Shown here: positions 6,722-16,800 of the stretch, piece by piece | How positions within the stretch are numbered: the first letter of the stretch is position 1 | How the letters are laid out: every line of letters starts with the position of its first letter | DNA from: Paramecium tetraurelia | Taxonomy: Eukaryota > Ciliophora > Oligohymenophorea > Peniculida > Parameciidae | Reading direction: 5' to 3' | DNA: 64,000 nucleotides | Assembly: GCF_000165425.1 (NCBI RefSeq) | Contig: NW_001798956.1 | Location: 311,373-375,372, forward strand | The notes under the pieces: generated by a model | Database searches by the model: none | Told to the model about the DNA's origin: nothing | What the model saw: only the letters and a program-made list of their open reading frames with translations | Position numbers and translations under genes: made by a program

Positions 6722-7872
6722 TCAATCCATATCTTCTATCTCCTCGAAGTAATCAAATTCTTCTAAAGCAGCTGAATCAACAGTCATATCAATTCCTTAT
6801 GATTAGGATTGCTGCATATATTCATCTGATTCTTAAAACTAATCTTATTATAATTATGAATCCCTCAGATCCTAAATTTATAATATTTATACATCTCCCT
6901 CCAATTCCTCTTCTAAATCTTCATTATCATATTTTTCATCCTCAAAATTTCTGTTATCGACCTTCTTTTACTATGCCTTTTTTTAATCTGCTTCCTACTT
7001 TTACTTTTCTTATTATTATTTCAATAATTCTTGTTGCTTTTGCTATTCCTTTAGTTTTTCTTATTCCTTCTTTTATTACTCTAATTTTTATTATTCTTAT
7101 TGCTTTTTCAACTCCTCCTATTATTTCCTTTATTCTTCTTATTGTTTTCGTTGCTATTCCTTCTTTTATTCTTCTAACCTCTTTTACTCTTCTTATTTTT
7201 TTTTTAATTCATCAAGTTTTCTTTATTCATCTTATTATTACTTTCTCTTGTCTTCTTCTTGTCTTTTGAGTTCTTCCTATTTTCTCAATTCATCTTATTT
7301 TTTCTACTCTTACAACTTTTATTCCTATTATTATTTTTATTATTATTATTATTATTGTTATTGCTACAATTATACTTCTTTTGGAGATGGCTGAGCAACT
7401 TTTTAATGAACTTTTTCCTCACTATAATATATATGATGTGAATTTTACGATTATTTTTCTGAATTTCTATTTTTCAATAAGAAATATAGCAATGGCTTTG
7501 TTGTGTCATTGGCTTCAATATTTAATTTCTTGGCAATCTATTCCCTATTAATTTCTTCTCTCAAATTACTTTCACTAAAAAAAAATTCATTCAAATTGAA
7601 TACCTTGAAAATATTGAATTTGTGTAATGCATATCAAAAAAGAGGAAAAACTCTTTTATCAATTCTAACATATCTCTACCACAACCCAATTCATAAATTG
7701 TTTAAGCTTTATTGTTTTCCCAAAAGAATGGAGATGGCTTTTTGTTGTTGCCCTCTTACTAATCAACTACATTAAAGACAGATGCTCTTATTTAAGCCCT
7801 AATCTTTGCCAAGGATCCATTAGCCTCTAAAGATTGTATAACTAAGTTCTTAAGTTCTGTTAACTCCTACAT
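6722..7872 (-). CDS. FOP/CEP43-like LisH centriolar protein, 373 aa
   Basis: The first 130 residues match the FGFR1OP (FOP, CEP43) family: MQELTELKNLVIQSLEANG, then AQIRASVFNVVDQQ and a LisH dimerisation segment around FLFFDMHYTNSIF, then LREEINREQIAKKLNIEA. FOP works at centrioles and basal bodies with CEP350 and CEP19, and it is related to plant TON1. One 29-nt intron lies within the LisH region. After residue 150 the protein turns into a long Q/E/K tract encoded mainly by TAA, TAG and CAA, then an acidic C-terminus ending EEIEDMD. The start at 7872 gives the conserved N-terminus. A basal-body role is likely (inference from family). Confidence 0.87.
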
Positions 7873-7931
7873 TATTAAAAATTTGAAAATAAATAATAAG
7901 AATTTTAATTTTTTATACTATTTTTATTCAC

Positions 7932-8417
7932 TCATTCCAAATCAAATTACTCTAATTCTCCTAATTACATAAAATCAAATGTTGAATCCCTGCGGTTTTG
8001 ATAGTATTCATAATGATCTGCTCTGATCTTTGCATTAACGAAATCCCCATCTCGAAATCTATCAAGAGGATGACCATGAGCAATGCAAAATAATTAATAC
8101 CAAAATAACCTATATAAACAATACACAAAAGGCATTTCTATCTATTAAGAACAACCAGGATCCCTTACAAATTATTCATCAAAGAAATATTTATTATAAC
8201 ATAAGTTTAATGTTATTCCTGTTAGACAACTTAGGATTGCAATTGTCCATTTATAAGGAACCAATTTTTATGTTGGATTGAACTTATAGACCTCCCTCAT
8301 AATGGGAGTCATTTGATCTTTGTACATCAGGAAGTATCTAAAGATATACACTGGTTTCTTGGTAAAAAGCTTTTCTTAAAGCTAAAAAAATTGTGTCCAT
8401 TCGTGAATTCTTCTCAT
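7932..8417 (-). CDS. Small protein with one membrane helix, 161 aa, unknown
   Basis: An intronless frame of 161 codons begins MRRIHEWTQFFQLQEKLF and ends LGELEQFDLE. A single hydrophobic segment (WTIAILSCLTGITLNLCY) sits at about residues 70-87. A Cys/Tyr-rich stretch follows (MPFVYCLYRLFWYQLFC), then a polar tail with YYQNRRDSTFDFM. Size and layout would suit a ciliate-specific subunit of a mitochondrial membrane complex, but nothing in the sequence proves this. The start lies only 35 bases past the stop of the upstream kinase gene. Confidence 0.7.
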
Positions 8418-8452
8418 TTAATAAAATTTAACTATTATAAAATAATATAAGT

Positions 8453-10413
<1,961 letters not shown>

Positions 10414-11493
10414 TAACGATATTTATATTAATTTTATTTGAATTTATTTAGACTCTTAATAATTCTCTACAAAAATCTAAATGCTATAAATTTGCAATTC
10501 CGATTTAGTTGTTAAATATAAGGGATTCAATTACATTCGCATTCAAAATCAATCAGACGATATTATTCTATTTATACTCAAAGTTCTATTCAAATAATAT
10601 TCCCAAACACATACTCCATTATGTCATACAATTAAAAAAATATTTTATTGTAAAATTCTCATCTAAACCCTATCTTCTTTATTATCTTATTTCATCAGAT
10701 AATTTATTTATGTATCAATACTACTAACTTTTAGATTATTAATATAAATTTACTTTTAAGGATAGGTTTTAAGGTATCTTAAACACACAAAAATGTATCC
10801 GTTTAATATATGTTTAATTATATTTAAATGCTCCGAATCTTCAATTTAATCTATTTTTTATTATTTTTAATTAAATATTCAGGAAATTAAAAATTATTAA
10901 AGAAAATTCTAATAGAAAATCATAGATACTTTGATAAATCATCATTAGATTTACATAGACTTAATTTTTATAACAATATCATAAAGTAAATGTTAAAGAA
11001 ACATCTGTTCAGGGATAATAAATAATTAAATAGTCTTAATTTTGGTATTGAAATTGATCCCATTGAATTCAATTTTTGATGATTCTTTTAAATTGAAAAT
11101 ACAATTCTGACTTAATTATTAAACCTTTATTCTTCTGTTTTTAAATAAAATTTAATGTAAATAAATCTACAATGAGTTAAGTTCTTTATGTTTAATTTAT
11201 AATAAAATTACAGAAGATATATTTCACTCTTATTATTCAATTACAAATTTACATACCTTGTTAATAATAACTATGAATACGTAATAGAAATATAGAATCT
11301 TTAACAACTTATAATTTTAGCATAGCATTATAATTTTAGAATAATTTGATGAATAGGAAATGTGACCAGAAATATTAATAGATCTCAGTAACAATTTCCA
11401 AACTGATCCTATTATTAATATTTGATCTATAAATTATATACAAAATTTTTGTTTAGAAATTCAATTATCGTTAATAATTTTATATATATAATA
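10414..11493. other. Intergenic region, about 1.1 kb
   Basis: This divergent spacer lies between the kinase start and the start of the 11.5 kb gene, and is long for such a compact genome. It is very A+T-rich and I found no convincing reading frame. A possible box C/D-like element sits near its right end (11346-11406). Confidence 0.6.
11346..11406 (+). ncRNA. Possible box C/D small RNA (weak)
   Basis: TTGATGA at 11346-11352 resembles box C and CTGA at 11403-11406 resembles box D, about 60 bases apart, a usual spacing for C/D snoRNAs. Flanking ATAAT and ATTAT could form a terminal stem, but it is offset by a few bases from the boxes. No guide target was identified. In such A+T-rich sequence this may be chance. 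Confidence 0.15.
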
Positions 11494-14400
11494 ATGCAGT
11501 GTCGTAAAGTCGAACCGAATGTGATAATGAATTCAGCAAGATTAGCACAACGTCCTGTTGAGGCAAATAAGATGGAGGAAGAGATAATTCACGTAATGAA
11601 GAGTCCAGACAAAAAGAGTCCCAAGAATAGCAAATCACTAAAAAGTGCATCTTCTGGCCCAATCATAAATTTGCAACAATAGATTATAATTCATCAAAGT
11701 GCTCCTACCAAGGACTCTTAAGTTTTATTGAAATTCCAAAATTAAATGAAGAAGAAGAAAAAGAAGAAGAAGACTTAAAAGAAACAGAAAGCAGAAACAA
11801 TAGAAAAGTAAGGATCAGAAGTGAGGATAGATTAAATACTAAAATCAAACTTAAAAAAATATTAAAGTATTTTATGTGATTTACAAATTAGAGGAAAAAT
11901 AAGAATAAATGCTGAAAGAAGAAATGCAAAAGTAGAGAGTAGTTAGTTTGAATGAAATGAGAAAGATGATGGATTAACAAATAAGATAATTGAATTAGCA
12001 AAGATTTGTCAGAGTAAATTTAACATATTATTATATAAAGTCAAGATCTCCACCTTCATCTATGTTGCCTTGGGGTGTTAATTAAAATAAACTAAAGCAA
12101 TATTGGACTAAGATGTTGGAAATCCATGATAAATTAGAAAACCCTAATGAAATGAATTAAAATGCTACAGAATAAGCAATAAAAGAAAAAATGAGGAGGC
12201 ACAAATTAGGATTAGACTTTCTAAATTCTAAACCTGAAAAATAAATCTAAAAAATGATCTAAAGTAAATTCTATTGAAATTTTAGAATAAAAATCAAAAT
12301 AAGTCTTGGAAAATGTTTAATCTCCAAAAAATCAGAAGAGCAATTGCGAGAATAAAGAAGCTGAATAAGATCTTAAACTTTATATCCTGTATAAGAGAGA
12401 ATTATGGAGACATTAAAAAATTGAAGAGTATCTAATTTAATTATTACTAAGGAAGAAATAATAAAAATTGAAAAAAGAAAAGTTGGAATAAAATTTGTAA
12501 ATACTAGAGAAAGAAGCTAAACTATTTGCTAAATCGAGGAACGCTTCCATGAAATCCAGTTTAGCAGTATAAGTAGCTCCTAGTAATGGGCAGTAATCAT
12601 CTCAACACTTTAGAACTTCTGAGCCCCCTAATTTTAACAAATTGGAAAAGGAATATAAAGAACTTATGAGATCTCTCAGACAATCCAGCTATAGTAGTGC
12701 ATAATCTCACACAAGAAAAACAAGTTAAATCAAATTTATAGATTGGTTTTAGAAATTGCCTGAATCTTATCTCTAAGAATAACTCTCTTAAATGTAATCC
12801 ATCAATGAACAAATGAATAATAAGGGGTTTCAATACAAATTAAGTGAATAAGAAATGTATCAATTTTTAGAGCAATTTCTGAAAGAAAAGTTTGAATAAC
12901 AGACTAAGTCAACTATTAAAGACAGATTTAACGAATTATAAGAAAGATTCTAATAAGCATCTTAACAGCAATCCTCTAATAGCTAATTATAATGTCTACA
13001 GTAAAATGTAAATCCTTAGAGTCATTAGAGTAACAAAAGTTAAAATCAAAAAGAATAAGCATCTAAGTCTCCAAAAGAACCAATATAAAATGAAATAAGT
13101 GAAGAATAATTAGAACACGTATATAATGTGGCTGCTACTATCATATAAAAGATTTGGAGAGGCTATAAGACAAGATAGGTTGTTTTTGAATATCTTGAAT
13201 ATCTAATTTCATAGGAAGAATTAGAGGAATAAGAAAAAGAGGAACAAAAATTGTAGTAGCAGTTTGAGGGATTGTCTTAAGAGGAAGAAATCAAATCTGT
13301 AAGTTAAATGTATGATTCTGAAATTAAGATAAACCCTCTTGAATTACAATAATAGGATTCTCCAAATCCTTAATATTAAGATAAACCTATACTACCCTTA
13401 GAGTCGTTATAATAATCAAGTTCAAGAGATACTAAAAGTATTCCTAATCAAACTATTGATTAATTCTTAGAAGAATAATCATCCCCTTAAAAATCAATTC
13501 AATAATAATAAAAATCAGAATAATCATAATTATAAATTTAAGAGTAAGAAAATAACCCAAATTCATAATAAGCATCTGAAAAAAACATTCATTTATATCA
13601 TGGATTGAATTCTGATCCAGAATACTTTATGCAAGTTATTAAATTAAGAGAAGAAGCTTTGTAATTGAAATATGACTAATAATTAGCATTGTTAGAAAAG
13701 ATGTTAGATAAAAAGAAAGTCTCAACTGATTTGTTCTCAGAAAATAAAGATAAATTGGATAAAAGATATAAAAGGGAGAGGGATAAGTTATAATAATCCA
13801 AAAATGAGGTCGAAAGATTGCATCAAATGTTTAAAGACACAATAAAATCAACACAAAAAGACCAATAATTTATGGAAAGAATGAAAGTCTAGACTGATGA
13901 AGATAATCTATCCATTTGGTAAATTTTCTCTATTCGTTCAGAAACAGAGTAATCTGATGTAGAAATAGAAAAAAAATAAACTCCACATTATGGTTTATTA
14001 TAATAAATTAGTAAATATTAGTTAATAATTTAGAGAATGATTAGTTTAAGAAGTATTCTAAAAATAGAAAACAAGTGAGGAGTTTTGATTAATAGGTAAG
14101 TTTAGATGAAATTTCAATGAAAAACGAAGAAATCTAAACAAGTACACTATTTAATGTCCACACAGAATCGATAAATCATTCTTTACACAAATCCTTATAA
14201 TTAACATCCACTCTCTAATAATCTATACCTTCTTAAGAAGCAGTGCAAACTGAATAAATAGAAGTTCCTGAGAATAAAGTTATTTAACTAAAAGAATGCT
14301 CTGATAGCTCAATAATTCCTTTTGATGATAGAAAAATAGATAATCTTACTGATTATATAGTTTAAAACATCATTTCCGAATTTGCTGAAGAGATGAATGA

Positions 14401-15311
14401 TTTCCCATTATAATCTCTTGGCATTTTGATGGAATGGGATGAAGAATCTCAATTAGACTAACAGTTTCCTCCAGGATTTCCAACAACACTTAATTTCATT
14501 AAGGATTATCTTGTTTCATTTAGTGAATTTATTCAAAGTAAGAATTTTATCATTTTTAGAGCATTATCTTGCAATTTTTTTAGAGTAGATTAATACTCCT
14601 TTGGGTATTACACCTTCAGATTTATTAAAGACAATTTCCCTTACTGGAATGTCATCAAATGTTCTTGATGACTCTACATCTGGACCTTTGTATCCATTAA
14701 TAAAACACATCCATCAAATGGAACCTTTAATTGAAGAAGAAATTTGGTCAAAATTTAATTAGTCTTATGCTCTCAAGTTAAAATACTTTAACGATATTAA
14801 CATAAGTGAAGAATTTAAGGAACTAGAAATATATCATTTAAGGATGATTTATGAAGCTTTTAATGAATCTATAAATTATATAAGGCCATACGGGATTAGA
14901 GGATAACCATATCCATGGAAGTCAAATCCTTTGAAGGTTTACTAAAATTAAACAACAAAAGAGTCTATTGATCGATCTATGGGATTTGCAATTTCTAAAA
15001 TGCTAAAATGGGGTTCTTTTTTGTGTGGGTTTATTCCTGAAAAAATAGAAACTCCTCAAGGAGAAATCATTGTAATAGAGGATGACTACTTGAATTCAAT
15101 TAAAGAAGACAGATTATAGTAAATGTTAGAATATGAAGTAATAAATAATTTGATAATCTAGATACAAGAATCAGAGGAAAAATGGTTAAATTATGAGGAA
15201 GAATAAGCTGAAGTGGCCGTGGAAATATCAGATGTTGTTTTTGAAACTATGCTGGATGAAGCAGCAGAGGAGATCTTCAAAATTTCATAAGCTTATAAGT
15301 TCTAAACATGA
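11494..15311 (+). CDS. Q-rich IQ/coiled-coil protein with a DUF4378 (TRM/CAP350)-like C-terminus, 1241 aa
   Basis: Four introns (25, 22, 23, 22 nt) leave exactly 1242 codons. In order: a basic N-terminus; coiled coils (QRVVSLNEMRKMMDQQIRQ); an IQ motif AATIIQKIWRGYKTRQVV near residue 520, which would bind calmodulin or centrin; long Q-rich linkers; more coiled coil; and a structured final 290 residues. That end has LRMIYEAFNESINYIRPYG, then PYPWKSNPL, and finally EKWLNYEEEQ with AVEISDVVFETMLDEAAEEI. This matches the pattern of DUF4378, the domain shared by plant TRM proteins (TON1 partners) and human CAP350 (a FOP partner). The match is by eye. A basal-body or cortical-microtubule role is inference. 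Confidence 0.78.
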
Positions 15312-15958: not shown

Positions 15959-16800
15959 TCAAATATTTCTAAAATTAGGCGATCTCTTTTCAATAAAAGC
16001 TTAAATCCCTTCTTTTGCTGCTTAAGTGTTGAGCAAACTATTGAATAGTTATCTTTCAACCTAATTAGCCTAACTTAAAGGTAACTCTTATGCATTCTTA
16101 ATAGCTGTTTTACCAACTATCAAAGTGTATAACGATTTCTCACTAATTCTTTTCGCTATCTTTATGCATTCATCTCTTAGTTGATCCTTTTTGACTACAT
16201 TTGAAACAATTCCTCTGTTTAAGGCCTCCTATGCTGTAATCTAATCTGAAGTTAGGATATATTTCATAGCAGTTGTTCTACCTACAAGATGAGTCAGTCT
16301 TTATGTTCCAGCAATTCCAGGAATGACACCTAATTTTAATTCTGGCAATCCTAATTTTGCATCTTCTGAAGCAATAATGATATCCCCATTTAATGCTAAT
16401 TCAAAACCTCCCCCTAAGGCTACTCCATTAACACCAATTATAAGTGGTTTTCTCAATGAATCAAAAACAGTATGAATTTCATAGAATATATCAGAGATTT
16501 GCTATGATTCATATGAACAGTCACTAAGTTCTTTGATATTGGCTCCGGCGCAGAATACTTTATCTAGTTTAGATAGAATCACTAAAACCTAAAGTCAACA
16601 ACAAATTATACTTTAATATTGGAGTCTTTGTCTAATTCACATACGGCTGAGCATAATTCTTTCTTCATTTAGCTTGATAAAGAATTTAAATCAGATGGAG
16701 AATTAAGATAAACTAATCCTATTTATTCTTTCTCTAATTTCTCAACCACAACTTTTTAATTTGTGCAAAGGTTTGCATGTATTAATTACAATCTTTACAT
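15959..16800 (-). CDS. Enoyl-CoA hydratase/isomerase family protein, 272 aa
   Basis: Crotonase-fold enzymes of this kind hydrate trans-2-enoyl-CoA in fatty-acid beta-oxidation. Visible are the oxyanion-hole segment FCAGANIKEL, the signature GVNGVALGGGFELAL with the first catalytic Glu, and KLGLPELKLGVIPGIAGTQR with the second. One 23-nt intron lies after residue 54. The start at 16800 gives MQRLQLIHANLCTNQKVV, a short presequence-like end that may direct it to mitochondria. Length is close to ECHS1 without its long presequence. The family is certain; substrate chain length is not. Confidence 0.92.

Follow-up and report, generated by a model that had tools for sequence, protein, structure and literature searches.

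Plant TRM proteins bear the DUF4378 domain, and the M2 motif coincides with the end of that domain. M2 is common to the animal protein CAP350 and the plant TRMs and is reported to recruit FOP, and the M2 of CAP350 also binds TON1 in yeast (PMC4357431). The C-terminal region of CEP350, as CAP350 is also called, is described as binding FOP directly (PMC5493781), and loss of CEP350 reportedly leads to mislocalized WDR90 and, in turn, to fragmentation of centrioles (PMC12704290). The TRMs of Arabidopsis number 34, each with a C-terminal M2 (PMC6300067), and in TRMs this is the motif that binds TON1. Among ciliates, Fop1 of Tetrahymena is reported on basal-body triplets and to stabilize basal bodies against beating forces (PMC6813674), and CEP350 is listed for Stentor (PMC9371601, Table 1). 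Here, we analyzed a 64,000-nucleotide stretch of ciliate DNA (the window) that encodes a FOP/CEP43-like protein and, on the opposite strand, a protein with a C-terminal domain of DUF4378 type. We conclude that the latter is best read as a DUF4378/M2-type scaffold that recruits a FOP-family protein, a reading to which we give a probability of about 0.6.

The window sits in an assembly of 69.07 Mb in 231 contigs, which we read as the macronuclear genome of a ciliate. Genetic code 6 applies, in which TAA and TAG encode glutamine and translation stops at TGA. Introns in our gene models are 21-29 nucleotides (nt) long. The short introns and the paired or tripled gene copies suggest Paramecium. The DUF4378-family gene lies at 11494-15311 on the plus strand. 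A splice model combined with paralogs gives six exons and a protein of 1233 amino acids (aa), with introns at 11867-11891, 12264-12285, 14011-14033, 14538-14559, and 15138-15161. The first-pass annotation had given a length of 1241 residues, which keeps the fifth intron. Four introns suffice for an open frame across the gene, and the fifth can be read through, being 24 nt long, a multiple of three, and free of in-frame TGA; it then contributes eight additional residues. An intron of this kind is easily retained in gene models. Paralogs that we spliced by a similar script have introns at the same point (for example, 23 nt long in L007 and 26 nt long in both L002 and L008), and with 15138-15161 removed the flanking protein aligned to the paralogs without gaps. 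Because of these two observations we corrected the length to 1233 aa.

Excluding this intron also raised the score of the C-terminal domain. Proteins were scanned against 24736 Pfam models with curated cut-offs of 25.7 bits for DUF4378, 20.3 bits for IQ, 29.4 bits for FOP_dimer, and 27 bits for LisH_2. With the intron kept, the C-terminal stretch matched DUF4378 (PF14309) with E=0.021 and 15.6 bits; with the intron removed, the C-terminal 312 residues matched with E=2.9e-4 and 21.7 bits (residues 160-296 of the stretch). The whole 1233-aa protein scored E=0.0019. The domain corresponds to residues 1081-1217 (14826-15260, plus strand, with the intron 15138-15161 inside it) and to positions 56-166 of the 166 in the profile, so that the match extends to the last profile position. 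The presumed M2-like tail, at the end of the domain, occupies about 15195-15278 on the plus strand. When the 1241-aa form was scanned at E≤10, IQ was the sole match and DUF4378 was missing. By the criterion set in the first-pass annotation this would have counted as a refutation of DUF4378; we attribute it to the retained intron together with divergence.

Searching the genome with the window domain at E≤10 gave 43 matching pieces. We read these as at least 23 distinct loci including that of the window; all locus counts for this family are lower bounds. Nineteen of the 23 were spliced and aligned, and 12 of these 19 make up an alignment that we call A1. All 12 members of A1 matched DUF4378 in a listing to E=10 (best E=2.4e-10), and no other model was matched by more than two of them. 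Among the columns identical in every A1 member are a pair of asparagine and glutamate, a pair of arginine and proline, and two tryptophans. Single-sequence scores cover nine paralogs, L009 and L019 not being among them, and four of the nine exceeded the cut-off (L007, 28.9 bits; L013, 37.9; L015, 41.4; L017, 29.8). Three of these four span nearly the whole profile (3-166, 7-166, and 8-166 of 166). Four shuffles of the window domain were made, and the two that were scanned matched no Pfam family at E≤1. Searches of the PDB with the single domain and with the family profile returned nothing below E=0.5. An exon-wise search of the genome with PF14309 gave no match and was uninformative, as its controls were silent too. 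Scans of viral and prokaryote contigs with the family alignment gave pattern matches, but tblastn found no relatives there. The DUF4378 assignment made in the first-pass annotation therefore stands for the family, with 12 of 12 members matching and four of nine over the cut-off, and is marginal for the window protein taken alone (21.7 against 25.7 bits). By sequence comparison, we regard the family as confirmed DUF4378 and the window protein as a divergent member of it.

The 19 aligned domains form about nine groups. The window protein (contig C3) groups with the copies on contigs C188 and C177 with support of 100/100 on a long branch, and within this group C3 and C188 are sisters (94/88). We compared codons between the C3 and C188 copies. 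In the 907 codons that precede the domain, dN was 0.120 and dS 0.844, a ratio of 0.142; the ratio was 0.136 across all 1217 codons, a count that includes a mis-spliced C188 tail. In comparisons with C177, dS was saturated or very high. From the ratio of 0.142, we conclude that the DUF4378 protein is under purifying selection.

Upstream of the domain, the protein contains an IQ motif at residues 531-546 (13131-13178, plus strand). The motif had been claimed before and is borne out by a Pfam match above the cut-off (PF00612, 21.9 against 20.3 bits; E=1.2e-4 in the 1241-aa form and E=1.3e-4 in the 1233-aa form). IQ-like stretches occur elsewhere in the family, in L009 and L015 by pattern and, more loosely, in L024 by eye; the other paralogs were read in part. 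A conserved block running from IKLREEAL to IKSTQKD lies at residues 700-774 (13638-13862, plus strand) and is probably a coiled coil. One pattern picks out a block starting with REEAL or similar in 12 of the 19 family members. A resemblance of the coiled-coil block to human CEP350 carries no weight in our reading.

The FOP/CEP43-like gene lies at 6722-7872 on the minus strand. Our splice model, in code 6, gives a 357-aa protein from four exons (7872-7604, 7574-7449, 7421-6893, and 6871-6722) separated by three short introns (7603-7575, 7448-7422, and 6892-6872). The spliced protein matched Pfam FOP_dimer (PF09398) with E=1.9e-22 and 79.8 bits, well over the cut-off, whereas LisH_2 remained sub-threshold at 20.3 bits. 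In a PDB search at E≤1, the sole match was the human FOP domain (2d68, E=0.003). With these results the sequence confirms the product as a clear FOP-family protein, as the first-pass annotation had proposed for what it called a LisH protein. The genome holds three close copies, on C69, C188, and C177, which are 84-92% identical across approximately the first 90-100 residues. Remoter relatives are found on C157 (65%), C128 (38%), and, weakly, C171 (E=1.5e-7), and a genome search with PF09398 also placed C80 and C176 above the cut-off.

The FOP and DUF4378 genes are arranged head-to-head across a gap of 3621 bp, which holds a kinase gene and smaller reading frames. Both other members of the window's DUF4378 group have a FOP copy nearby. 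On C188 the FOP gene starts at ~185,605 and the DUF4378 gene at ~193,745, 8.1 kb apart; on C177 the starts are at ~372,708 and ~363,125, 9.6 kb apart. The divergent orientation is kept on both contigs, and further open frames lie between the two genes on each. About 5.2 kb of the C188 interval can be aligned with C177 (72%), and this DNA contains long open frames. In the window, we found a 263-bp remnant of this DNA at 10680-10942 (no strand assigned), which matched the C188 interval by blastn (69% over 274 columns, E=1e-16); its counterpart on C188 lies within a 573-aa open frame (L062, 1791-3512). Given the sister relationship of C3 and C188, the simplest reading is that the interval DNA was lost in the window copy after genome duplication. 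We conclude that the linkage of FOP and DUF4378 genes predates the duplications behind the three copies and that the tight spacing in the window arose by loss.

The intervening kinase gene (8453-10127, minus strand) encodes a Ser/Thr kinase; its 195-aa open frame at 9540-10127 matched Pkinase with E=3.9e-45, and by eye it is AGC/NDR-like. Its DNA is retained on C188. Downstream of the DUF4378 gene, a minus-strand open frame at 15959-16582 appears enoyl-CoA hydratase-like by eye.

We considered how much weight the linkage can bear. By contig, the window's DUF4378 group is the only one with FOP-family loci on the contigs that it occupies. Under a rough uniform placement, the expected number of chance FOP/DUF4378 pairs is 0.007-0.03 within 5 kb and 0.017-0.07 within 12 kb, the range reflecting how copies are counted; this low estimate was made post hoc and is suggestive, not decisive. 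No DUF4378 match at E≤10 shares a contig with the fourth close FOP copy, on C69 (~261430, L031). Operons are not known from Paramecium. Linkage as decisive evidence of partnership was rejected, given the wider spacing on C188 and C177 and the loss behind the tight spacing in the window. The first-pass annotation had proposed a ciliate version of the TON1-TRM/FOP-CAP350 module with nearly adjacent partners. Both protein types are indeed encoded here; a dedicated, nearly adjacent partner pair is not borne out, given the approximately nine DUF4378 groups, the distances of 8.1 and 9.6 kb, and the C69 copy.

In the reading that we prefer, the DUF4378 protein would be an elongated scaffold with a DUF4378/M2-type tail at its C-terminus, and this tail would bring a FOP-family protein, in the form of a TOF-LisH dimer, to basal bodies or to their cortical microtubules. 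The middle of the scaffold would be a coiled coil, and the IQ motif would bind calmodulin or a centrin. The FOP recruitment, the basal-body location, the coiled coil, and the light-chain binding are inferred. As plant and animal members of the family recruit proteins of FOP type, binding to some FOP-family member is our first guess, however the linkage is read. The partner may be the FOP encoded in the window or another FOP-family protein; linkage by itself is no proof that the two work together.

Several observations weigh against this reading. About nine DUF4378 groups compete as the partner, and several of them fit the DUF4378 model better than the window group does. The window protein falls under the cut-off of 25.7 bits both as the domain alone (21.7 bits) and as the whole protein (19.0 bits), and five of the nine singly scanned paralogs are also below it (16.6-24.1 bits, weakest E=0.01). 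CAP-Gly was absent from the Pfam matches of both the 1241- and the 1233-aa form, and an exon-wise CAP-Gly search of the genome found four loci over the cut-off (C227, C128, C219, and C108), none of them on contigs with DUF4378 loci. An AlphaFold prediction of the last exon alone reached a pLDDT of 38.6 and was unusable. The fitting name for the window protein is DUF4378-family, CAP350/TRM-like, and neither CAP350 nor TRM.

The most serious alternative is that the DUF4378 call is right and the protein has another role or partner, with the nearness of FOP being a chance arrangement kept by descent through genome duplication. The three linked copies represent one ancestral linkage and not three independent events, open frames separate the genes over the longer intervals of C188 and C177, and the C69 FOP copy does without a DUF4378 neighbor on its contig, all of which fit such a history. 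It has to be set against the low number of chance pairs expected, post hoc as that estimate is, and against the recruitment of FOP-type proteins by the DUF4378 family in plants and animals (PMC4357431, PMC6300067), and we consider it unlikely while still giving it real weight. That the DUF4378 similarity is itself spurious, the domain being a helical one peculiar to ciliates and enriched in acidic residues, we consider highly improbable. The score of the window protein below the curated cut-off and the uninformative single-sequence fold speak for this explanation; the agreement of all 12 A1 members on one of 24736 models, the four of nine paralogs over the cut-off with three near the full profile, and the silence of the two shuffles argue strongly against it. 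We therefore retain the scaffold that recruits a FOP-family protein as the best account of the window protein.

A broader and more speculative possibility, which we hold to be rather doubtful, is that the DUF4378 family was expanded independently in ciliates. About twenty scaffolds lacking CAP-Gly, several of them with IQ motifs, would then assign FOP-family proteins and centrins to the many different cortical microtubule arrays that surround basal bodies, much as plant TRMs handle TON1. The ancestor would have combined IQ motif, coiled coil, and DUF4378, and CAP-Gly would have been added on the animal side. FOP-CAP350 is known from animals and TON1-TRM from plants, and a large ciliate DUF4378 family would bring the scaffold half to a third lineage. 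Paramecium, which has thousands of basal bodies and in which genes are easily silenced, is suited to asking if different DUF4378 proteins put FOP on different arrays. Among the literature matches listed, no ciliate DUF4378 family is described, and the papers using the word DUF4378 concern, by title, plants or Chlamydomonas. The mere presence of a CEP350-type protein in ciliates would not be entirely new, given the table entry for Stentor (PMC9371601).

Compared with FOP/CEP43 (FGFR1OP) and Tetrahymena Fop1, the window FOP has the same FOP_dimer match, a sub-threshold LisH match near the N-terminus, and then a stretch rich in Q, K, and E. It differs in its length of 357 aa and in having several copies in the genome. 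The other TRM domains, VARLMGL and DUF3741, were not among the matches of the window protein, at E≤10 in the 1241-aa form or at E≤1 in the 1233-aa form, these single-sequence scans being weak and the first having missed DUF4378 too; instead, the window protein has the IQ motif and the conserved upstream block. CAP350/CEP350 binds FOP through its C-terminal region by way of the M2 shared with TRMs (PMC5493781, PMC4357431), and the predicted DUF4378 domain of the window protein is likewise C-terminal. The window protein departs from CAP350 in lacking a CAP-Gly match, in carrying an IQ motif, and in its size, 1233 aa against at least 3116 aa for CAP350 (judged from an antibody range of 3066-3116 aa, PMC4357431). 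With the plant TRMs the window protein shares a C-terminal domain of DUF4378 type and membership in an enlarged family, which in Arabidopsis has 34 members (PMC6300067).

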